The notes under the pieces were generated by a model. The model had not been told where the DNA came from. It was given only the letters and a program-made list of their open reading frames with translations, and ran no database searches. Below, piece after piece: positions 7,205-45,557 of a DNA stretch of 64,000 nt (positions are counted from its first letter, which is position 1; each line of letters begins with the position of its first letter). This DNA is from Corynebacterium sp. Lineage in GTDB: Bacteria; Actinomycetota; Actinomycetes; Mycobacteriales; Mycobacteriaceae. The stretch spans positions 159,105 through 223,104 of the forward strand of contig JAUMTW010000005.1 of assembly GCA_030531005.1 (NCBI GenBank), in the 5' to 3' direction. Both the position numbers and the translations under genes were made by a program.

Positions 7205-8278
7205 ATGGCCATTCGTTTTTCCCGCCGGGAAAAAGAGATAGCGTACCTACCGGCAGAATATTCCGATCGCACTCTGCTCAATGTGGTGCAACTGCCCCAA
7301 GGTGAGCGGGTAACCCCCATTCGCTTGATCCTGCGTCGGCTGCTCTATGCGATTATCTTGATTGCTATTGTGGCAGTGCTCGTCTACTTCGAGCGCGACG
7401 GTTACAACATTGAGCTCACCTTCATTGATGCGGTCTACTACGCCTCGGTATCACTGTCGACGACAGGCTATGGCGATATCGTGCCGGTATCCCAACAAGC
7501 CCGCCTCATCAATGCATTGATCATCTCACCGATGCGGATTATTTTCCTGGCGATCTTGGTTGGTACTACACTTGCCGTGCTCACCCGGGAATCCCGCCTA
7601 ATCATGCGCATCCAGCGCTGGAGGAAGACCTTGCGCAAGCACAACGTCGTTATTGGTTATGGCACCAAAGGCCGGGCTGCAGTGGCAACCATGCTTGCCG
7701 ATGGCACCCCACCAAAAGACATCGTGGTCGTGGATCAAAATAAAGCAGCACTTGATCGAGCTAGCTCTGATGGACTCGTCTGTGTGCAAGGCTCTGGTAC
7801 CAGCTCTGAAGTACTGCGCCTTGCCGGAGTGCCCAAAGCCAAGTCAGTAATCGTTGCCCCCAGTGCTGATGACACCGCAGTGTTGGTTACCTTGTCTGTG
7901 CGAGAATTAAGCCCCGGTGCCTGGATCGTGGCTAGTGTGCGTGAATCCGAAAATCAGCACCTTTTAGAGCAATCCGGTGCTGATTCGGTAGTCATTTCCT
8001 CGGAAACTGCTGGGCGCATGTTGGGGATGGCAACAGCTACTCCCTCTGTGGTGGAAGTTATGGAAGATATGCTCTCTCCAGGTGATGGCTTCTCTGTTGC
8101 CGAACGCCCCGTGGGCGAAGACGAAGTTGGTGCTAACCCGCGCCACCTCGCAGATATTGTACTAGGACTGGTGCGCTCTGGTGAGCTCTACCGCATTGAC
8201 TCCCCAGAAGCAGAAGTCGTAGAACCCGGCGATCGCTTGCTCTACGTGCGCCGTGTCGTAGGATCGCAAGGATCATAA
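7205..8278 (+). CDS. Two-TM potassium channel with RCK/TrkA-N domain
   Basis: A membrane K+ channel subunit of 357 residues, homologous by family and position to Rv3200c. A first membrane helix (about residues 38-62) is followed by a pore loop with the selectivity filter TTGYGD, a second helix, then a cytoplasmic Rossmann-type RCK domain starting HNVVIGYGTKGRAA with the GxGxxG nucleotide loop, and a TrkA-C-like tail. The ribosome site aggaggtga lies within the last codons of adnB, and the intergenic gaps on both sides are 7-10 bases, so it belongs to the adnAB transcript. The ligand and physiological role are not visible in sequence. Confidence 0.93.
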   Translation: MAIRFSRREKEIAYLPAEYSDRTLLNVVQLPQGERVTPIRLILRRLLYAIILIAIVAVLVYFERDGYNIELTFIDAVYYASVSLSTTGYGDIVPVSQQARLINALIISPMRIIFLAILVGTTLAVLTRESRLIMRIQRWRKTLRKHNVVIGYGTKGRAAVATMLADGTPPKDIVVVDQNKAALDRASSDGLVCVQGSGTSSEVLRLAGVPKAKSVIVAPSADDTAVLVTLSVRELSPGAWIVASVRESENQHLLEQSGADSVVISSETAGRMLGMATATPSVVEVMEDMLSPGDGFSVAERPVGEDEVGANPRHLADIVLGLVRSGELYRIDSPEAEVVEPGDRLLYVRRVVGSQGS

Positions 8279-36375: not shown

Positions 36376-36754
36376 GGGGTCGATTTGGTTTCGACTACGT
36401 TGATCAAGCTAGGGGAAGCGTGCCGGTGAAGGCTAGAGACCACCGTTAAGCGTCGTAGCACATTGATAAGCGCCGAGAACACTCAGCGCGACTACGCACT
36501 CGCTGCCTAATTCGTAGCGACTAGCGTGTCTGTCAGCCCAGATACGTTCCCGATCTGGTGACTGGCATCGACTAGGGGACTTGCTGATTTTGGGCGTTAG
36601 CAGCCAAAATTGGGACTTCTAACTGCTAACTGGGCTCATCATCTGGAAGCGTTCGCCCTATCCAGAGAGCCGAGTAGAGATCTGCGCGCGAACTGCGCAC
36701 GGAGAAGCCCTGGCAAGGTGGCGTAGGACCCGGGTTCAAGTCCCGGCGGCTCCA
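36376..36754 (+). ncRNA. ssrA: tmRNA (ssrA), tag AENTQRDYALAA
   Basis: The 5' end (GGGGTCG) pairs with the 3' acceptor (CGGCTCC then A) and the T arm is GGGTTCAAGTCCC. The tag frame runs from the resume codon GCC at 36472 through GAG AAC ACT CAG to TAA at 36508-36510, giving AENTQRDYALAA, the corynebacterial pattern ending in ALAA. With SmpB it rescues stalled ribosomes and marks the product for proteolysis. Its 3' end is a common integrase target and accessory DNA begins directly downstream. Confidence 0.96.
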
Positions 36755-36767
36755 CTCTAGGCATTTC

Positions 36768-39656: not shown

Positions 39657-39685
39657 TTCTTCTCCGCGCACACGGAGGTATTTAT
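39657..39685 (+). CRISPR. Isolated CRISPR repeat R1
   Basis: A 29-base match to the array repeat (stem CTCCGCG … CGGAG, then GGTATTT) with four differences, two at the 3' end. No second repeat follows at spacer distance; phage-type DNA starts immediately. Confidence 0.7.
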
Positions 39686-39686
39686 T

Positions 39687-39780
39687 GCTGCTCAACATCC
39701 TAGAGTTACTCATAAAAATAGGGGAGCTGGCAGTCATTATCTACGCATTAAAAAACAATGCAGATAAGGGCAAAGACTAA
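39687..39780 (+). pseudogene. Fragment of a small phage protein abutting R1
   Basis: A short frame LLNILELLIKIGELAVIIYA … NADKGKD runs out of the repeat and stops just before 39781. It is amphipathic to hydrophobic. Its natural start is not visible. Confidence 0.35.
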
Positions 39781-39795
39781 CCATCTCCCCATCAG

Positions 39796-39826
39796 CTAGT
39801 CGCCTCGGCTCAGCCGGGGCGACTAG
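39796..39826 (+). terminator. Hairpin
   Basis: CTAGTCGCC (39796-39804) pairs with GGCGACTAG (39818-39826), with an inner CGGCT/GCCG stem. There is no T tract. Confidence 0.5.
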
Positions 39827-39857
39827 CCCAAGCGTACCACAAAAGAAAGGGCAAATC

Positions 39858-39994
39858 ATGAAAAAGCAGACCGGGCAATAATTATTCTTTTTGCCGTAAT
39901 CCTAGTAGTGTCAGTACTGCTACAAAGCTACTCATTCACACTGGTACTGGCAGCAATCAGTGCCGGGTACATACTAGGACAGGCGAAACGATGA
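39858..39994 (+). pseudogene. Small phage membrane protein, frameshifted, first cassette copy
   Basis: ATG AAA AAG at 39858 leads to an early stop, but restoring one base in the A run gives MKKADRAIIILFAVILVVSV … AISAGYILGQAKR, a 45-residue protein with one or two membrane helices. It overlaps the ATG of the helix-turn-helix gene by four bases, as in the second cassette. Confidence 0.5.
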
Positions 39995-40234
39995 ACATCA
40001 CCATTTCGGAAACTGAAACCGGAAAAATATTGTGGCGGGCTACAGACTGTGCAGAACACTGTGGCATAAGCGCTACCACATGGCGCACCTACGTGTCAGC
40101 AGGGTCAGCACCAAAACCAGCCATACACCTAGACTCACGCACTTCCCCTATGGTACGCAGACGAGGTCAAAACCTGGCAAACACAACGCCCAGGCGTACC
40201 AGGATGGATGGAATACATGCGAGACAGGAAGTAA
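39991..40234 (+). pseudogene. Helix-turn-helix phage protein, frameshifted copy
   Basis: Nearly identical to the intact gene at 40441, but one additional t (cacttcccc instead of cactcccc, near 40142) shifts the frame. After it the C-terminus continues in the next frame as PLWYADEVKTWQTQRPGVPG … YMRDRK. The intact region ILWRATDCAEHCGISATTWR is an AlpA/excisionase-like DNA-binding helix pair. Confidence 0.65.
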
Positions 40235-40642
40235 ACCCCCACCTTTCTCTCTAGCCCAACAAGAGAGAAAGGGGAATTTCCTCCAATTCTACCACCAAAA
40301 AAGAGGAGCAGACATGAACAACTACTATAGTCCCATCATAATATTTGCCATATTCATAGCTGCAGGCGTACCGGCAGTTTTCCTACTCGTACCAGCAGCA
40401 GCCATGCTATCTACTTTCATCAGAAACAGGAAAATCCACCATGGAAATAGCAATAATTAACCCAGCTACCGGAAAAATATTGTGGCGGGCTACAGACTGT
40501 GCAGAACACTGTGGCATAAGCGCTACCACATGGCGCACCTACGTGTCAGCAGGGTCAGCACCAAAACCAGCCGCACACCTAGACTCACGCACTCCCCTAT
40601 GGGACGCAGACGCGGTCAAAATCTGGCAAAAACAACGCCCAG
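40018..40642 (+). repeat. Direct duplication of about 175 bases (copies 450 bases apart)
   Basis: Copy 1 is 40018-40192 and copy 2 is 40468-40642. The first 115 bases are identical; scattered substitutions and one indel follow. Each copy carries the body of the helix-turn-helix gene preceded by a small membrane-protein gene, so a two-gene cassette was duplicated or acquired twice. Confidence 0.85.
40314..40460 (+). CDS. Small phage membrane protein, second cassette copy
   Basis: A 48-residue protein (MNNYYSPIIIFAIFIAAGVP … RNRKIHHGNSNN) with one long hydrophobic segment and a basic tail, preceded by agaggagca. It overlaps the start of the next gene by 20 bases in another frame, implying translational coupling. 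The function is unknown. Confidence 0.5.
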   Translation: MNNYYSPIIIFAIFIAAGVPAVFLLVPAAAMLSTFIRNRKIHHGNSNN

Positions 40643-40680
40643 GCAAACCCGGACGGCCATCTCGTAACCTCACGCAATAG
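40441..40680 (+). CDS. AlpA/excisionase-like helix-turn-helix protein
   Basis: A 79-residue protein with ILWRATDCAEHCGISATTWR and the motif WDADAVKIWQKQRPGKPG, typical of small actinophage excisionase-like or AlpA-like DNA-binding proteins that recognise phage control sites. The ATG lies within the preceding small membrane-protein gene. The frameshifted copy at 39991 shows the family exists twice in this remnant. Confidence 0.7.
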   Translation: MEIAIINPATGKILWRATDCAEHCGISATTWRTYVSAGSAPKPAAHLDSRTPLWDADAVKIWQKQRPGKPGRPSRNLTQ

Positions 40681-40965
40681 CCGGTTGCTTTGCACGAAAC
40701 TGCGGGGAGATGTGCGCTAACAGTACTTCTCAAACAGCGCGCCACGTTAGAAGGAGAGGGCGCGCATTAATGCATGTGTAATCCACTTATGAAACCACCT
40801 AATACGGTGTAGGAATCACATTGTCAAAATTCGTGAAATACGGGTACAGTCCTTCCAAAAAAGAAACTGCTGGACCTCGTATGTGTTGGACGCTGCACCC
40901 ACCACGTTTGCTACTCCCCACGGGTAGATCCAACACTCTCAACGTGTACAAATGAGAAAAGTACA
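40681..40965. other. Intergenic phage-derived stretch
   Basis: I see no gene. It ends at repeat R2. Confidence 0.4.
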
Positions 40966-40994
40966 CTCTGCTCCGCGCGCTCGGAGGTATTGTA
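40966..40994 (+). CRISPR. Isolated CRISPR repeat R2
   Basis: ctct, then the CTCCGCG stem and cggaggtat are conserved. The last bases read tgta before tttcc resumes, as if four bases were inserted in the 3' handle. No neighbouring repeat is at spacer distance. Confidence 0.65.
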
Positions 40995-41015
40995 TTTCCT
41001 AAAAAAAACTAAACA

Positions 41016-41035
41016 CCCCGCTACGGCGGGGCTTT
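41016..41035 (+). terminator. Hairpin with short T tail
   Basis: CCCCGC (41016-41021) pairs with GCGGGG (41026-41031) around TACG. It is followed by ttt and a run of nine C (41036-41044). Confidence 0.6.
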
Positions 41036-41067
41036 CCCCCCCCCATTTTATCGAAAGGTTTTTTATA

Positions 41068-41118
41068 ATGACCCCACAAGAATTCCGCCTCCGCCTTAAT
41101 CCAGAAAACCGCAGCTAG
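41068..41118 (+). pseudogene. Short phage gene fragment
   Basis: MTPQEFRLRLNPENRS followed by a stop; an aaagg site precedes it. It resembles the start of a phage protein cut off early. Confidence 0.3.
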
Positions 41119-41248
41119 ACGGGTGAAGTGTCCCTAATGTTACTTCCTACTGCACCGCATAATTTGCAATATATGGCGCCTTGCCATATTTCAATAGCCA
41201 AAGTGGCGAAGTAAAAGGCGATCCCCACTAGTCCAGAAAGGCAATACT

Positions 41249-41311
41249 ATGGACACCCAAAACATCACCACCGGCTGCCACGGCATTGATGCCGTCGTCT
41301 CCGCAAAGTAG
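41249..41311 (+). pseudogene. Short phage gene fragment before R3
   Basis: MDTQNITTGCHGIDAVVSAK with a gaaagg site upstream; it stops 6 bases before repeat R3. Confidence 0.3.
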
Positions 41312-41316
41312 ATTTA

Positions 41317-41345
41317 CTCTTTTCCACGCATGCGGAGGTATTTCC
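41317..41345 (+). CRISPR. Isolated CRISPR repeat R3
   Basis: 26 of 29 positions agree with the array repeat; the full 3' handle GGAGGTATTTCC is kept. Three substitutions are C/G to T/A. Confidence 0.8.
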
Positions 41346-41748
41346 GAGCGTTAAGAAGCTGAGCAGTGCGAAGGCACCTGGGATGATGGTGTGTCGGGTA
41401 GGAATCAGGGGCAACGCTGGTAGCGGTGTGTGAGCGCCAAGGCCTTAGGTGGATCCGTTAGACTGCGTGGCATTCTGAAAAAGATTAAATCCAACGTTCC
41501 TAAAGGTTTCGGTGTTTCCCTGAAAAAGTGAATCCGAGCGTTTCTCACATTTGCTTCATTCGTAGCGTTGTAGTTGTAAGAAGTTCAGCCTGTGGTGTTG
41601 GGGGGGGGATGGACGAGTGGGATGCCAGGTATTACGTGTTTTCCCGGTATGTCCTAGGTGGGTGCTTGAATTGCTGGGAGCGTGAATTCTTATGGTGTTA
41701 GGTAGGTCATGGGTTCAGTGGAATCAGTGTAGCGGAGAGGTTTGGTAA
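41346..41748. other. Decayed phage sequence
   Basis: Fragments only, for example KIKSNVPKGFGVSLKK ending near 41531. A run of nine G lies at 41600-41608. Confidence 0.4.
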
Positions 41749-42162
41749 AGGCGTGATGCGTTTGATTCTGCGATGCGGAAGGTTCCTGCGGTTGATGAGC
41801 CAGTACAGGTTGTTCGTCGGTTACGGGGTGAGGAGCTTGCAGGCAGCGTTATTACTGACGGTTTCGAGCTAACGGATATAAAGACTTGGCGCGGACAGGA
41901 GTATAAGAACTGGGGGTATTTATCGACTTCCACGATCGCGCAAGAACACTTTGGTGAGGTTGAACTACGGTTAACCGTGCGACCTGGTACGCGCGGGATT
42001 TATGTAGGAGAAGACCGCAATGGGGTCAATGGGCTTTCGGCAATTCGTGGTGAGAATGAATACCTGCTAAATCGGCAAACACGGTATAGAATAGTAGATG
42101 TACAAGAAGAAAATGAGACGATTGTTGCATATGCGGAGGTGATTGGTCAAGATGTCAAGTAA
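41749..42162 (+). CDS. ADP-ribosyltransferase domain protein of a phage head module (5' truncated)
   Basis: The coding frame opens after a stop at 41746-41748; the first ATG is 41773. The domain shows all three landmarks of the R-S-E ADP-ribosyltransferases: VQVVRRLRG (arginine strand), WGYLSTSTIA (STS motif) and GENEYLLNRQTRYRIVD (ExE catalytic glutamates). In actinophages this domain is often fused behind a Mu gpF-like or portal protein; the upstream part is missing here, so this is probably the free C-terminal domain. If translated from 41773 (129 residues) it keeps the catalytic motifs. The next gene overlaps its end by 11 bases. Confidence 0.75.
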   Translation, partial: RRDAFDSAMRKVPAVDEPVQVVRRLRGEELAGSVITDGFELTDIKTWRGQEYKNWGYLSTSTIAQEHFGEVELRLTVRPGTRGIYVGEDRNGVNGLSAIRGENEYLLNRQTRYRIVDVQEENETIVAYAEVIGQDVK

Positions 42163-42532
42163 GTATCCCCCACGGTATAAGCCCTCTGGGCTAGAGATGA
42201 TCCCAACACCTCGCTACGCGGTGCGTTGTCTGGAAGGCGCTAAGCCTGGTTTTGTTTGGCTGTATGAGGTTCCAGATGGCTTTGTCATTATGAAGAGTGA
42301 TGGCGAAAAGATTTTGACTGCCACGTCAAAGAATTTAAGAGACCTTGATGCTGACTTCTACAGTAATCAGTTGCAGGATTTTCTCTTGGATCGTGCAACG
42401 GAAGGATTATCTGTTCCAGATGCGTTAGCTCGAGTGCGTGAGCATTATGGTGATCCAGCGTATGAGCTTGCTTGTTCTGATATTAATGACGTGGAGCCAG
42501 AGGTACGCGCTTTGGTTACGTCGTTAGTGTAG
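42152..42532 (+). CDS. Hypothetical phage head-module protein
   Basis: 126 residues from ATG 42152. It has the look of a small soluble phage protein between minor capsid and scaffold genes: VRCLEGAKPGFVWLYEVPDG, then FLLDRATEGLSVPDALARVR. I know no function. A terminator follows at 42581-42605. Confidence 0.6.
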   Translation: MSSKYPPRYKPSGLEMIPTPRYAVRCLEGAKPGFVWLYEVPDGFVIMKSDGEKILTATSKNLRDLDADFYSNQLQDFLLDRATEGLSVPDALARVREHYGDPAYELACSDINDVEPEVRALVTSLV

Positions 42533-42580
42533 CCGTGAAGTAGTCACTGGTGGCAGGTGCGAGTCCTGCCCACAGTACGA

Positions 42581-42605
42581 ACCCCGCTTTTGTGGCGGGG
42601 TTTTT
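42581..42605 (+). terminator. Intrinsic terminator within the phage head module
   Basis: ACCCCGC (42581-42587) pairs with GCGGGGT (42595-42601), followed by ttttt. Confidence 0.85.
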
Positions 42606-42639
42606 CTATGCCCAAAAACACGAACCCAGGAGGTTTATC

Positions 42640-43137
42640 ATGGCAGAGGAAATGACCGCCACCGAAGCACAAGAGCCACAGGTGGCTGCAGCTGCCCAGG
42701 AGGCAGCACAAGGTCGTAGCCCCGAAGATTACGAAAAAGAAATCGCGGAGCTACGCCGGGAAAGCGCGAAGTACCGCACACAACGCAATGAGCTGCAGGC
42801 GGATGCTGAAGCATATCGCAAGCAGCAGGAAGCGGAGAAAACCGAGTTGCAGCGCGCCCAAGAATCGATCAATCAATACCAGTCACAGTTTGAAGCTATA
42901 CAGGCTGAGAATCTTCGACTGCGCCTCGCATCCAAATACGGTATCGCCGAAGAAAATATTGATTTGCTCGGTAGTGGTGATGCTGAGTCTTTGGAGGATC
43001 GTGCGCAGCGGATTGCAGAAATGCAAAAGAAGGCGGTGACCCCACCACCATCACAAACACCGGTAGAAAAGCTTGGTGCTGTGCACCGGGATGATTCGAA
43101 TCCGCCGGATGCTTTCCCATCGAACTGGCCAGTCTAA
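42640..43137 (+). CDS. Phage capsid scaffolding protein
   Basis: 165 residues from ATG 42640, chosen for the ideal aggaggtttatc ribosome site. A long charged coiled coil (YEKEIAELRRESAKYRTQRN … QAENLRLRLAS) is followed by a C-terminal Pro-rich tail, the layout of actinophage scaffold proteins. It directly precedes the decoration and major capsid genes, as expected. It assists capsid assembly and is then lost. Confidence 0.85.
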   Translation: MAEEMTATEAQEPQVAAAAQEAAQGRSPEDYEKEIAELRRESAKYRTQRNELQADAEAYRKQQEAEKTELQRAQESINQYQSQFEAIQAENLRLRLASKYGIAEENIDLLGSGDAESLEDRAQRIAEMQKKAVTPPPSQTPVEKLGAVHRDDSNPPDAFPSNWPV

Positions 43138-43186
43138 AACAGACTGGCTTTTTTCATACCCAAATTTTTTTTAAGGAGTTTTGATT

Positions 43187-43549
43187 ATGGCTAGTACCCC
43201 TATTGAGTACACCCCGGCCTTTAATGTCACCGTGAAGGCAAATGAGGCCCTTGCGGCTGGCACGCTCGTTGCTATCAGTGGCGAGGCGGTTGATCGCTGC
43301 CCAGTTGTAGCCAAGGCCGCAGCTGGTAAGCCGGTTTTCGGTGTTGTAGCCCAGGATGCGGCAAAGGATGCTTTCGTAACCGTATATCGTGCGGGTGTCT
43401 ACGAAATTCTTGCTGAAAATGGTGTTACTGCAGGTGATGCTGTTGAGGTCGCTGCAGGCAAGGCAAAGAAGTCTGCTGGTACTAATCCGGTGATTGGTAT
43501 TGCTGTTTCTAAGACTGCTGCGGGTCGTGCCTTAGTGGCACTCAAGTAA
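43187..43549 (+). CDS. Capsid decoration-like protein (DUF2190 type)
   Basis: 120 residues from ATG 43187 with aaggag 7 bases upstream. The Ala/Val/Gly-rich beta protein (FNVTVKANEALAAGTLVAIS, GVVAQDAAKDAFVTVYRAGV) matches small head-decoration proteins located between scaffold and major capsid genes. It would bind the capsid surface. Confidence 0.8.
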   Translation: MASTPIEYTPAFNVTVKANEALAAGTLVAISGEAVDRCPVVAKAAAGKPVFGVVAQDAAKDAFVTVYRAGVYEILAENGVTAGDAVEVAAGKAKKSAGTNPVIGIAVSKTAAGRALVALK

Positions 43550-43565
43550 GGAAGGATAAAAAATT

Positions 43566-44474
43566 ATGAGTCGAGATCCGATGTTCCCCCTGGCTACTGC
43601 CCAGGTCAATGATGGTGCAATCACCATCGATATGATGCTCAATGAACCTACTCGCATTGATCGCTATGTAGGTACTTTGGTCGAGCGTGATTTGCTGGCC
43701 AAGCACATTTTCGGCAATGTGACCACCTCGGGTGGCGCGCTGCTATTTGATCAGCTGACCAGCAATGAAGCGCTGGCAGCGAATAAGCCTGGTATTGTGG
43801 CACCGGGTGCGGAGTTCCCCGTGCTGCACACCACTACTGAGGACCCAGTCATTGCGAAGGTCCAAAAGACCGGTGGCAAGTTCGGCGTGACCGATGAGGC
43901 AAAGATCCGTAATGACTCTATGTTGCTGCAGCGTAAGACTGCACAGGTAGCGAATACCATGGTGCAGGACTTGGATCGCCGAGGTGTTGAAGCATTACGC
44001 GCAGCCAGCGCTACCGTATCCGGTGCGTTGACTGTTACCTCTAATGGCTGGGCAGCAGCCACAGGGGTGAAGGCAGCTGAGAAGGCAGCGAAGACTGCTG
44101 AGGGCGAGCTGCTTGCTAATCTGCTGGATGCGCAGGAAGCTATCGAATCTAAGTCCCTCGGCTACAAGCCGGACACTCTGGTGTTGTCTCCGAAGGACAC
44201 AAAGAATCTGAAGCTGCTGCTTGGCGTAGCTAATTATGCTGAAGTGCTGTCCAGCTTCGGGCTTACCCTGTACACCACCACTGCGGTGGAAGATGGCGAA
44301 GGCTACGTACTGCAGGCAGGTGCGGTCGGTGTTATGGGCGTTGAATCCCCAATTTCCACTGAAACCTGGCGTGACGCCTCGATCCAAACTACCTGGGTGC
44401 AGACCTGGGCTACTGTCGCATTCGGTGTGACCGATCCATTTGCGATGGTCAAGCTCACCGGGCTAGGGAGCTAG
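43566..44474 (+). CDS. Major capsid protein
   Basis: A 302-residue protein in the place and size range of actinophage HK97-fold capsid proteins. Recognisable stretches include RYVGTLVERDLLAKHIFGNV, KTGGKFGVTDEAKIRNDSML, KPDTLVLSPKDTKNLKLLLG and the final VTDPFAMVKLTGL. It appears intact, with a gaagga site upstream. Together with the scaffold and decoration genes it marks a real prophage head module of about 2 kb. Confidence 0.88.
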   Translation: MSRDPMFPLATAQVNDGAITIDMMLNEPTRIDRYVGTLVERDLLAKHIFGNVTTSGGALLFDQLTSNEALAANKPGIVAPGAEFPVLHTTTEDPVIAKVQKTGGKFGVTDEAKIRNDSMLLQRKTAQVANTMVQDLDRRGVEALRAASATVSGALTVTSNGWAAATGVKAAEKAAKTAEGELLANLLDAQEAIESKSLGYKPDTLVLSPKDTKNLKLLLGVANYAEVLSSFGLTLYTTTAVEDGEGYVLQAGAVGVMGVESPISTETWRDASIQTTWVQTWATVAFGVTDPFAMVKLTGLGS

Positions 44475-44476
44475 CC

Positions 44477-44529
44477 ATGTTTGCATCCCCAGCTGATGTT
44501 CGCATCCGGTGGAAGCATATTCCAGCTGG
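44477..44529 (+). pseudogene. Head-tail connector gene cut off at a CRISPR repeat
   Basis: MFASPADVRIRWKHIPAG is a typical start of an HK97 gp6-like connector (MFAxPADVRxRW). Two bases after residue 18 the repeat R4 begins and nothing of the connector follows. The phage module therefore ends at, or within one spacer length of, the repeat. Confidence 0.75.
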
Positions 44530-44558
44530 CCCTTCTCCGCGCACGCGGAGGTATTTCC
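44530..44558 (+). CRISPR. Isolated CRISPR repeat R4
   Basis: 28 of 29 positions agree with R5/R6. The upstream flank is a phage gene; downstream no repeat occurs until 45182. Confidence 0.85.
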
Positions 44559-44948
44559 TCTCGCGTCGGTCGGCGTCGGTCGGTCGATGTAATAGTGGCC
44601 AAGGGCATTACTCACTCGGCAGTGGCGGCATGTGCTTAAAAGTCTTGTCCACGGTCAACATCATGTCGCGGAACCCACATCTCTGTTGGTCAGGCTCGGC
44701 ACACCCTTGCCCTCAAGCCTCACGGTCATAAGGAGCGCCTGCTGTTTTTGGGCTCGTTGAACGTCCACCCTCTAACGGCTGGCTCGGGTCCGGGATTAGC
44801 GGAGGGGGTAGTTTTAAAGTATTTTCCTGTCAGAGAAGGCGGGTGCGAGTGAATCCCTCTCCTCGCTCCTTGGCTTACGCGCCTCGTTGGCAAGAGCCAC
44901 TATGACGTGTAAACTACGATATTGAATTTTTGATGTAGAAAAAGCATA
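44559..44948. other. No gene recognised between R4 and the terminator
   Basis: The first bases (tctcgcgtcggtcggc…) could be a spacer. The remainder is non-coding or decayed sequence. Confidence 0.4.
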
Positions 44949-44976
44949 CCCCCCGGGCACACCCGGGGGGCTTTTT
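44949..44976 (+). terminator. Strong intrinsic terminator
   Basis: CCCCCCGGG (44949-44957) pairs with CCCGGGGGG (44962-44970) around CACA, then cttttt. Confidence 0.9.
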
Positions 44977-45035
44977 CATGATGTGTGTCATTTATGATAT
45001 ACGTCACATCAAGTAGATAGAATAGCTAGAGAGCC

Positions 45036-45164
45036 TTATTTCCCTCTACGTAGCTCTTCAATTCCTTTTTTAGTTTCATTTACGTTATGGAAAAGTTTCA
45101 CGAAGAAGACGACTACTGCTAGGAGAATCAATAAAGCTATTCCAGGAATAATAAATTCGACCAT
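45036..45164 (-). CDS. Small single-TM protein (42 aa)
   Basis: MVEFIIPGIALLILLAVVVF … KKGIEELRRGK: one membrane helix and a charged amphipathic C-terminus, preceded by aaggaacgtg. The start lies 18 bases from repeat R5, so its promoter must overlap the CRISPR repeats or their spacers on the opposite strand. The size and layout resemble small toxins, holin-like or phage proteins; no family is recognised. Confidence 0.55.
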   Translation of the reverse strand: MVEFIIPGIALLILLAVVVFFVKLFHNVNETKKGIEELRRGK

Positions 45165-45181
45165 CACACGTTCCTTACTTG

Positions 45182-45339
45182 CTCTTCTCCGCGCACGCGG
45201 AGGTATTTCCATCGCCGGGGTGCGAGATAGTCACGGCCGGGACTCTTCACTCTTCTCCGCGCACGCGGAGGTATTTCCTAAGACAAACTAACTTGAACAC
45301 TACCATATATCTCTTCTCCGCGCACGCGGAGGTATATTT
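45182..45339 (+). CRISPR. Three-repeat type I-E-like CRISPR array core (R5-R7)
   Basis: 29-base repeats at 45182-45210, 45250-45278 and 45311-45339. R5 and R6 are identical. The hairpin is CTCCGC/GCGGAG around GCAC and the 3' handle is GGAGGTATTTCC. R7 loses the last bases (tatattt), as terminal repeats usually do, so transcription runs on the plus strand. The second spacer is 32 bases, the I-E length. The first is 39 because actcttc is duplicated in tandem at the start of R6; without it the spacer is 32. No cas gene is in the window. Confidence 0.9.
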
Positions 45340-45344
45340 TGGCG

Positions 45345-45557
45345 ATGGAAATCGCTCAGCGTCGGAAGCGGATCATGCGAGAGCAACGTGCTCTGAGATC
45401 GCAGATTCCGCAGGCAGCGACCGCGCTAAAAGAAGCTTATTGGTCGACTCGGGATCAAGCTGAACTGGTTGGTATGACCGGAGGGCGGATCTCTTGGATT
45501 GGCAGAACGATACCCTCCAGATCGACCGGACCCAAACGCTCCGCGCTCAGGCAATAA
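45345..45557 (+). CDS. Small helix-turn-helix-like protein fragment next to R7
   Basis: MEIAQRRKRIMREQRALRSQ … STRDQAELVGMTGGRISWI is a charged helix plus an apparent helix-turn-helix, seen in small phage or mobile-element regulators. The last 18 residues look out of frame. A start upstream within the repeat is also possible (TTG 45339). Confidence 0.4.
   Translation: MEIAQRRKRIMREQRALRSQIPQAATALKEAYWSTRDQAELVGMTGGRISWIGRTIPSRSTGPKRSALRQ

Follow-up and report, generated by a model that had tools for sequence, protein, structure and literature searches.

In a 64,000-nucleotide stretch of a Corynebacterium sp. genome (the window; contig JAUMTW010000005.1, or G000:C45:159105-223104, G000 being its own genome of 45 contigs), a 3184-bp piece of phage DNA fills the whole interval between two copies of a CRISPR (clustered regularly interspaced short palindromic repeats) repeat and is flush with the repeat at either end. 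Seven copies of this 29-nt, type I-E-like repeat lie on one strand at 39657-45339, and the locus appears to be what remains of a type I-E CRISPR array that has apparently lost its cas genes. We read its long intervals, with about even confidence, as leftovers of spacer-protospacer recombination in the cas-less array.

Seven repeats and a flush piece of phage DNA

The sequence scan of the window placed the repeats (R1 to R7, plus strand) at 39657, 40966, 41317, 44530, 45182, 45250 and 45311, and the intervals between them were recounted, in order, as 1280, 322, 3184, 623, 39 and 32 nt. A first-pass annotation of this DNA had listed seven same-strand copies at these positions, separated by gaps of about 1.28, 0.32, 3.18 and 0.62 kb; the positions stood up to the recount, a mismatch scan and shuffles, the gaps agreed with the recount, and only its array spacers of 32 bases needed correction, as they are 39 and 32 nt long. 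At up to three mismatches the 29-mer occurred five times (0.00 expected), and its 20-nt core gave seven matches (0.07 expected), a number reached in no shuffle. A 22-mer at up to three mismatches recovered the same seven copies across the 45 contigs and no others.

Differences from the consensus numbered 4 in R1 (39657..39685) and 6 in R2 (40966..40994), both degenerate, 3 in R3 (41317..41345), 1 in R4 (44530..44558), 0 in R5 (45182..45210) and R6 (45250..45278), and 3 in R7 (45311..45339), whose 3' end is degenerate, as in the last array repeat of two congeners (G240 and G150). R4, R5 and R7 form the full hairpin, R1 to R3 fold less stably, and R6 is identical to R5. The array remnant holds a 39-nt spacer (45211..45249), the last 7 nt of which resemble, by eye, a duplicated repeat start and for which phage matches were weak and at chance level, and a 32-nt spacer (45279..45310). 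The regular period of about 61 nt was absent: one of the six intervals is 32 nt, one is 39 nt and four are 322-3184 nt.

The repeat has the length (29 nt) and the palindromic form of a CRISPR-array repeat of the I-E kind; the I-E label is one that we presume, and the cas genes of congeners were identified by eye. In the genus comparison set of 242 genomes (own included, one genome per species), the core was found at up to two mismatches in 14, in several of them as 61-bp arrays. The identical core occurred in arrays of G132, G150 and G240, mostly with a 61-bp period, and the G240 array lies downstream of cas genes, named from their open reading frames (ORFs). The recurrence of the core in the 61-bp arrays of congeners and the hairpin of the repeat show it to be a true CRISPR repeat. 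Small open frames follow R1 and R7 (39657-39780; 45311-45557), and the GGAGG of the repeat is placed directly ahead of them, like a ribosome-binding site.

The phage piece, S3 (41346..44529, plus strand), is flanked by R3 and R4 and is one colinear piece of a Juicebox-like phage, from the MuF gene to gene 10; Juicebox itself has the same head-gene order. It begins at the first base after R3 with the decayed 3' part of a MuF (minor head) gene (41346..41760). This is followed by the open frame of an ADP-ribosyltransferase (ART)-like C-terminal domain of the MuF gene (41773..42162; PF03496, E=1.3e-12; phrog_3895), an ORF between MuF and scaffold (42158..42532) with 37.7% identity to relative locus L042 (E=3e-23, frame 42143-42529), a head scaffolding protein gene (42640..43137; phrog_1793; 52.7% to Juicebox g7), a head decoration or DUF2190-type gene (43187..43549; phrog_673, phrog_122), the major capsid protein gene (43566..44474; phrog_1650, E=1.5e-59; 71.3% to Juicebox) and, truncated at R4, the initial 53 nt of the head-tail connector gene, gene 10 (44477..44529). 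The phrog matches and the Juicebox colinearity bore out the earlier placement of a phage head module (scaffold, decoration, capsid) in one long gap.

At the right edge, gene 10 is recognisable to codon 18 (window MFASPADVRIRWKHIPAG versus Juicebox MFATVDEVRTRWRGYPAG, 10/18 identical), the last base of that codon is the first base of R4, and in five relative loci the gene continues without a repeat. At the left edge, the first match (E=0.018) was to a conserved MuF motif, placed at 41376-41438, and its spacing from the ART domain is as it should be (385 versus 393 nt). A frameshift-tolerant comparison with MuF scored 53; 60 base-shuffled sequences averaged 32.6 and reached at most 46, and the reverse complement scored 39. 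Over the six frames of the window, the MuF profile ranked the left part of S3 first, weakly (E=0.82). Because the profile alone was weak, an ungapped offset test was adopted, in which the 30 residues that follow the conserved Tyr, or the position aligned with it, in three relatives (L045, L042 and L096) were compared with the window from the first base after R3. The scores against L045 (61) and L042 (44) were reached at 0 of 127,815 other offsets (next 31 and 24), and the offset-test scores indicate that the phage homology starts at the R3 border. The flush edges of S3 are firm; both ends match phage genes up to the repeats, as the first-pass annotation had proposed to check, and colinear mobile-element DNA fills the interval as would be expected of a giant spacer. 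Complete repeats on both sides would be expected as well; R3 departs from the consensus at 3 positions and R4 at 1.

A Campbell-type integration through a single spacer was considered and rejected, since it needs an identical 32 nt at both ends of S3 and the ends differ. In the viral contigs, no relatives of the 42158-42532 ORF or of the ART domain were found. The domain at the end of MuF (41773-42162), ART-like in the window, is annotated as EndoU in Juicebox (gene 5) and Poushou, and this position may be a swappable cargo slot.

Other long intervals and their setting

The first long interval, S1 (39686..40965, plus strand, 1280 bp), encodes small membrane peptides and a tandemly duplicated helix-turn-helix (HTH) gene of the corynebacterial-prophage kind, the intact copy of which lies at 40441..40680 on the plus strand (phrog_597, E=1.9e-13). 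With this match and with HTH homologues present in prophage loci of the genus, the earlier description of membrane and helix-turn-helix cassettes in another long gap held good. The duplication spans about 190 bp (40018-40207 and 40468-40656, 94% identical, 450-bp spacing). S2 (40995..41316, plus strand, 322 bp) holds two truncated gene starts by eye, and the search of genus loci found no DNA relative of it. S4 (44559..45181, plus strand, 623 bp) consists of a paralogous stretch (about 44573-44978) and, beyond it, a minus-strand ORF for a small membrane protein. The stretch is 72% identical to one downstream of a Viral_Rep gene elsewhere in its own genome, a likeness that points to S4 being plasmid- or small-element-like. 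The Viral_Rep gene itself (PF02407, CRESS-like) is at L086:10387-11361, that is, G000:C1 at about 158386-159360. The content of S1, S3 and S4 is thus recognisably mobile-element DNA. At the right edge of S4 homology searches gave no relatives, and none were found in the viral contigs for the S1 HTH gene or for the small protein encoded after R7.

Nineteen array loci of congeners (some of them partial arrays) were scanned for intervals off the 61-bp period. A short class measured 49-183 nt from start to start. Long intervals were found in G132, one of 876 nt (about 0.9 kb) and one of about 0.8 kb between oppositely oriented copies, and in G133 (C. propinquum DSM 44285), where, at the end of a contig, a pair of repeats with 61-nt spacing precedes a 1326-nt interval and a third repeat. 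No relatives of the G132 long interval were found. The G133 interval holds phage-type HTH and integrase pieces; its integrase homology ends at most 5 nt from the repeat (64.5% identity, E=9.7e-9), and the leftover bases can keep the frame. To judge from the alignment, this is a second species in which invader DNA ends mid-gene, flush with a CRISPR repeat.

Repeats that border foreign DNA as direct repeats are also what would be left if prophages or plasmids had integrated site-specifically at CRISPR repeats and had later been mostly deleted. In G133 a repeat adjoins an integrase fragment, and in G132 about 110 nt separate the end of an integrase gene from a repeat copy. Both S3 edges, however, lie inside structural genes (MuF and gene 10), where no attachment (att) sites are expected, and the G133 edge lies inside the integrase gene itself; we consider such an origin very improbable.

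Other loci were set aside. The 2961-bp gap in G109, at first a candidate giant interval, contains galE-like and MFS-like (major facilitator superfamily) genes by eye and then a second leader resembling the first, which indicates two arrays. By eye, the repeats of G014 and one copy in G139 look like what is left of host CRISPR loci, with cas pieces alongside, and the other G139 repeat pair adjoins a transposase-like ORF (by eye). The lone G139 repeat at L059:6780 lies about 0.4 kb from a Cas5-like fragment (7237-7590, by eye), and the two are possibly the remains of a lost CRISPR-Cas locus.

In the window, a transfer-messenger RNA (tmRNA) gene (36376..36757, plus strand) marks the start of a degraded mobile-DNA island that contains the repeats, and we read the repeats as sitting in a graveyard of mobile DNA of about 14 kb downstream of this gene. 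The island includes an rve (integrase-core) fragment, which scored below the curated cut-off, and an integrase N-terminal stub at about 36953 (by eye). Of 61 genomes, the own one among them, none contained a close relative of the right flank; the largest match was 66% identical over about 420 bases. Cas1 and Cse1, the only two Cas families searched, were not found in the own genome by profile search.

Such surroundings suit ordinary decay, in which an old array amid mobile DNA was broken by unrelated insertions and deletions that end at repeats by chance. The degraded rve and integrase pieces and the uneven decay of the repeats fit this account, as do two loci read by eye: that of G014, where three repeats adjoin a shortened cas1, and that of G139, with its Cas5-like fragment beside a lone repeat. 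Chance should nevertheless leave remnants of spacers or repeats at the junctions, and two of two S3 edges and the sole testable G133 edge are flush within a few nt. We therefore regard decay of this kind as quite unlikely.

Proposed recombination between spacers and protospacers

In the explanation that we favour, the original spacer would have been replaced by longer DNA in four of the six intervals. Phage or plasmid-like DNA that entered the cell would recombine homologously, at its protospacers, with the matching spacers. If an invader matched two adjacent spacers, a double exchange would remove the repeat that separates them and put in its place the invader's DNA from between the two protospacers. 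The product would be a repeat, invader DNA running from one protospacer to the other, and a repeat, with both ends flush. That recombination took place, which spacers were there before it, in what order the events came and that S1, S2 and S4 arose in the same way as S3 are all inferred. Insertion of a single prophage or insertion sequence (IS) into one spacer was rejected, since S1, S3 and S4 are different elements and S3 is cut mid-gene at both repeats. The two mid-gene flush edges of S3, together with the one in C. propinquum, argue against random insertion, site-specific prophage integration and repeats internal to a phage.

For the protospacer-adjacent motif (PAM), 243 distinct spacers from parts of the congeners' arrays were matched to phage and prophage loci. 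Spacers were counted at up to three mismatches; rows with 5-8 mismatches, in which the motif was mixed, were excluded. The trinucleotide xAC preceded the target in 11 of 13 spacers (exceptions AGC and CTG) and in 8/8 at up to one mismatch, 6 of those 8 coming from one array against one phage, Stiles. Several source arrays with variant repeats were involved, so xAC is taken to be the PAM of the repeat family; AC occupies 5-6% of positions in the background. In the G070 array (L009, 1648-2075), 6 of 8 successive spacers have at most one mismatch to phage Stiles, which points to repeated targeting.

At the left edge of S3, six of 10 relatives (one group of three and another of two being near-identical), L045 with the best match there among the six, have TAC as the codon before the edge. 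At the left edge of S4, AAC precedes the matching stretch in the own-genome paralogue, as far as the alignment, on which this reading depends, can be followed. Among right edges, read 32 nt inside, that of G133 is GAC, an exact fit. The two readable left edges thus fit xAC (2/2, with caveats), as does one of six right edges, and a PAM is seen or implied at 3/8 edges against about 0.4 expected, two of the three with caveats. From these sequences the excess appears suggestive and falls short of proof. Recombination between spacers and protospacers would explain the flush edges together with the PAM at the right edge of G133 and the left edge of S3.

Several observations weigh against it. The right-hand place reads GAT in S3 (44495..44497, plus strand, where xAC is expected and L046 has GAC), AAT in S4, CAA in S1 (with AAC at 31 nt), GGC in S2 and AGC in G132. 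The codon at the left edge of S3 is not xAC in 4 of 10 relatives: TAT in L044 and L099, CAA in L042, the relative that shares the ART domain, and GCG in L096. At S4 a tandem duplication of 10 nt makes the left alignment ambiguous, and the AC is displaced by one base in two Arthrobacter phages that carry the S4 stretch. The offset test against L096 scored 24, which 4 of 127,815 offsets reach. The MuF remnant is stop-rich, yet the five ORFs in the next 2.7 kb are open, which implies uneven decay. Homology searches gave no relatives at the edges of S1 and S2. When six presumed congener leaders (some uncertain) were compared with the own genome of the window, only the repeat and short matches were returned, the best other match (E=0.004) lying outside the island. 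Lastly, for four such events a short array would have had to contain several pairs of neighbouring spacers, each pair aimed at one invader.

Entry of phage DNA by spacer-protospacer recombination, one of two origins that the first-pass annotation had offered, is therefore favoured and not proven: a colinear, flush, mid-gene S3, the G133 edge and a PAM at 3/8 edges speak for it, and the PAMs at the right edges in the window fail. The I-E PAM that was to be looked for at the segment ends was likewise seen or implied at the left edges of S3 and S4, with their caveats, and at the right of G133, and was missing from the right edges in the window. Overall, the strength of the mechanism is moderate.

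The distribution of the motif bears on a second account, that of direct capture, in which giant prespacers of 0.3-3.2 kb were integrated by Cas1-Cas2, whose length ruler may have been defective, and the repeat was duplicated each time, in the way that casposases put long elements into DNA. Flush edges and repeat duplication are predicted, and a PAM is expected at the leader-side (left) edge alone; both readable left edges fit xAC, and the right edges in the window do not. Length also changes along the array, from giant sizes in four intervals to 39 and 32 nt in the two on the trailer side, which would fit a shift in acquisition over time. On this account the GAC of C. propinquum, 32 nt inside the right edge, would be coincidental, Cas1 was not found and no leader was recognised, and the supposedly newest repeats, R1 to R3, are among the most degenerate. 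We know of no experimental precedent for the direct capture of giant prespacers, and we rate the account as rather unlikely. A more specific form, which we judge unlikely, is that the I-E adaptation machinery, during its own loss, captured kilobase fragments as giant spacers with a leader-side PAM, a casposon-like throwback; the length ruler would have failed before the cas genes were lost, hence four giant intervals on the leader side and normal ones on the trailer side.

Phages themselves may carry CRISPR repeats, and solitary repeats (RNA anti-CRISPRs, Racr) or mini-arrays could have been left in phage and plasmid wreckage or could have provided the homology for integration into an array. 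A lone repeat identical to the consensus was found in an intergenic position, followed by a terminator-like hairpin, in a prophage of C. striatum ATCC 6940 (G211; also in IMG/VR contig L027). A spacer of G150, whose repeat core is identical, matches the C. striatum prophage (26/26 aligned, 3 mismatches over 32, PAM GAC), and a terminator-like hairpin also follows R2 (about 41014-41036, by eye). Two type I-E Racr candidates are given as active in the relevant passage of PMC10651486, and integration by repeat-repeat homology is envisaged in that of PMC8616872. The repeats in the window, though, do not lie within continuous phage DNA, since S3 is cut mid-gene at both and different DNA lies beyond; the five relative loci run through gene 10 free of repeats; and the full repeat occurs in no phage record, a search of phage and plasmid records with the 33-nt repeat having given no match that covered at least 80% of it. 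We regard a phage origin of the repeats as quite unlikely.

The lone repeats (L064:9106-9130, minus strand, in the C. striatum ATCC 6940 prophage, and L027:5651-5672) stand among small minus-strand genes within the head module. In L064, a tRNA-end-like sequence and then a strong terminator-like hairpin lie downstream. By its sequence context, this repeat is a good candidate for a type I-E RNA anti-CRISPR. Small phrog_686 HTH genes lie within about 2 kb of isolated repeat copies in three species (L065:10699-10923, L062:11229-11459, L064:6972-7364) and are possible anti-CRISPR-associated regulators.

If spacers regularly swap with their targets, arrays would let in genes of phages and plasmids and might be destroyed in the process. 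Gene-sized pieces between repeats would then be a fossil record, which could be found in ordinary genomes as long, flush, PAM-bearing intervals. If instead Cas1-Cas2 captured long DNA, the length limit of CRISPR memory would not be absolute. S3, flush at both repeats, suggests that invader DNA can enter CRISPR memory by exchange or be swallowed whole.

Comparison with known systems

Casposons and Cas1-Cas2 insert DNA, long DNA in the case of casposons, with duplication of a short target. Unlike in casposons, no casposase was seen in the window locus, and the ends of S3 are not mutual inverted repeats (by eye). Prophages are reportedly found integrated in CRISPR loci of Streptococcus pyogenes, whole and at repeats, as a 2020 preprint from Varble and co-workers is said to describe. 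That case shares the repeat-flanked phage DNA, and differs in having whole prophages where internal head fragments cut mid-gene are found here. With RNA anti-CRISPRs, as presented in part of PMC10651486, the locus has in common that repeats stand beside phage DNA, and it differs in that the repeats in the window bound phage pieces.

Spacer-target recombination (Varble et al. 2019, Watson et al. 2018) is described, in the section of PMC8616872 that concerns it, as promoting the transfer of CRISPR-Cas and adjacent DNA. There, as far as that section goes, homology joins array and phage DNA, and joints would lie at spacer-repeat borders, as we propose here; the Corynebacterium locus would differ in holding fossil invader fragments inside an orphan array.

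The closest parallel is SiL-E1 of Sulfolobus islandicus LAL14/1, a 'pseudo-spacer' of about 2 kb in CRISPR_2 that lies exactly between two repeats (PMC3718332). According to the passage on this element, it is colinear with pING1-like plasmids, has five ORFs and no unaccounted bases, and is not in other strains; its authors, who in 2013 called spacers so large previously undescribed, offered faulty protospacer processing or homologous recombination as scenarios (PMC3718332). The first-pass annotation had known of no described system in which phage segments sit as giant spacers, a statement that this published plasmid pseudo-spacer overtakes. As in S3, mobile-element DNA fills the whole interval between two repeats. 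SiL-E1 is, in the account given there, a single archaeal case in a strain with cas genes (subtype I-A). The Corynebacterium array is bacterial, I-E-like and cas-less, and four of its intervals are long; phage head genes are interrupted at its repeats, the PAM was tested, and a second species shows a further flush edge. Together with Sulfolobus, examples now come from archaea and bacteria, and recombination and capture can be tested against each other. The kind of element is already known from SiL-E1, and further cases may be in print; new here are the several intervals, the bacterial I-E array and the phage head genes.

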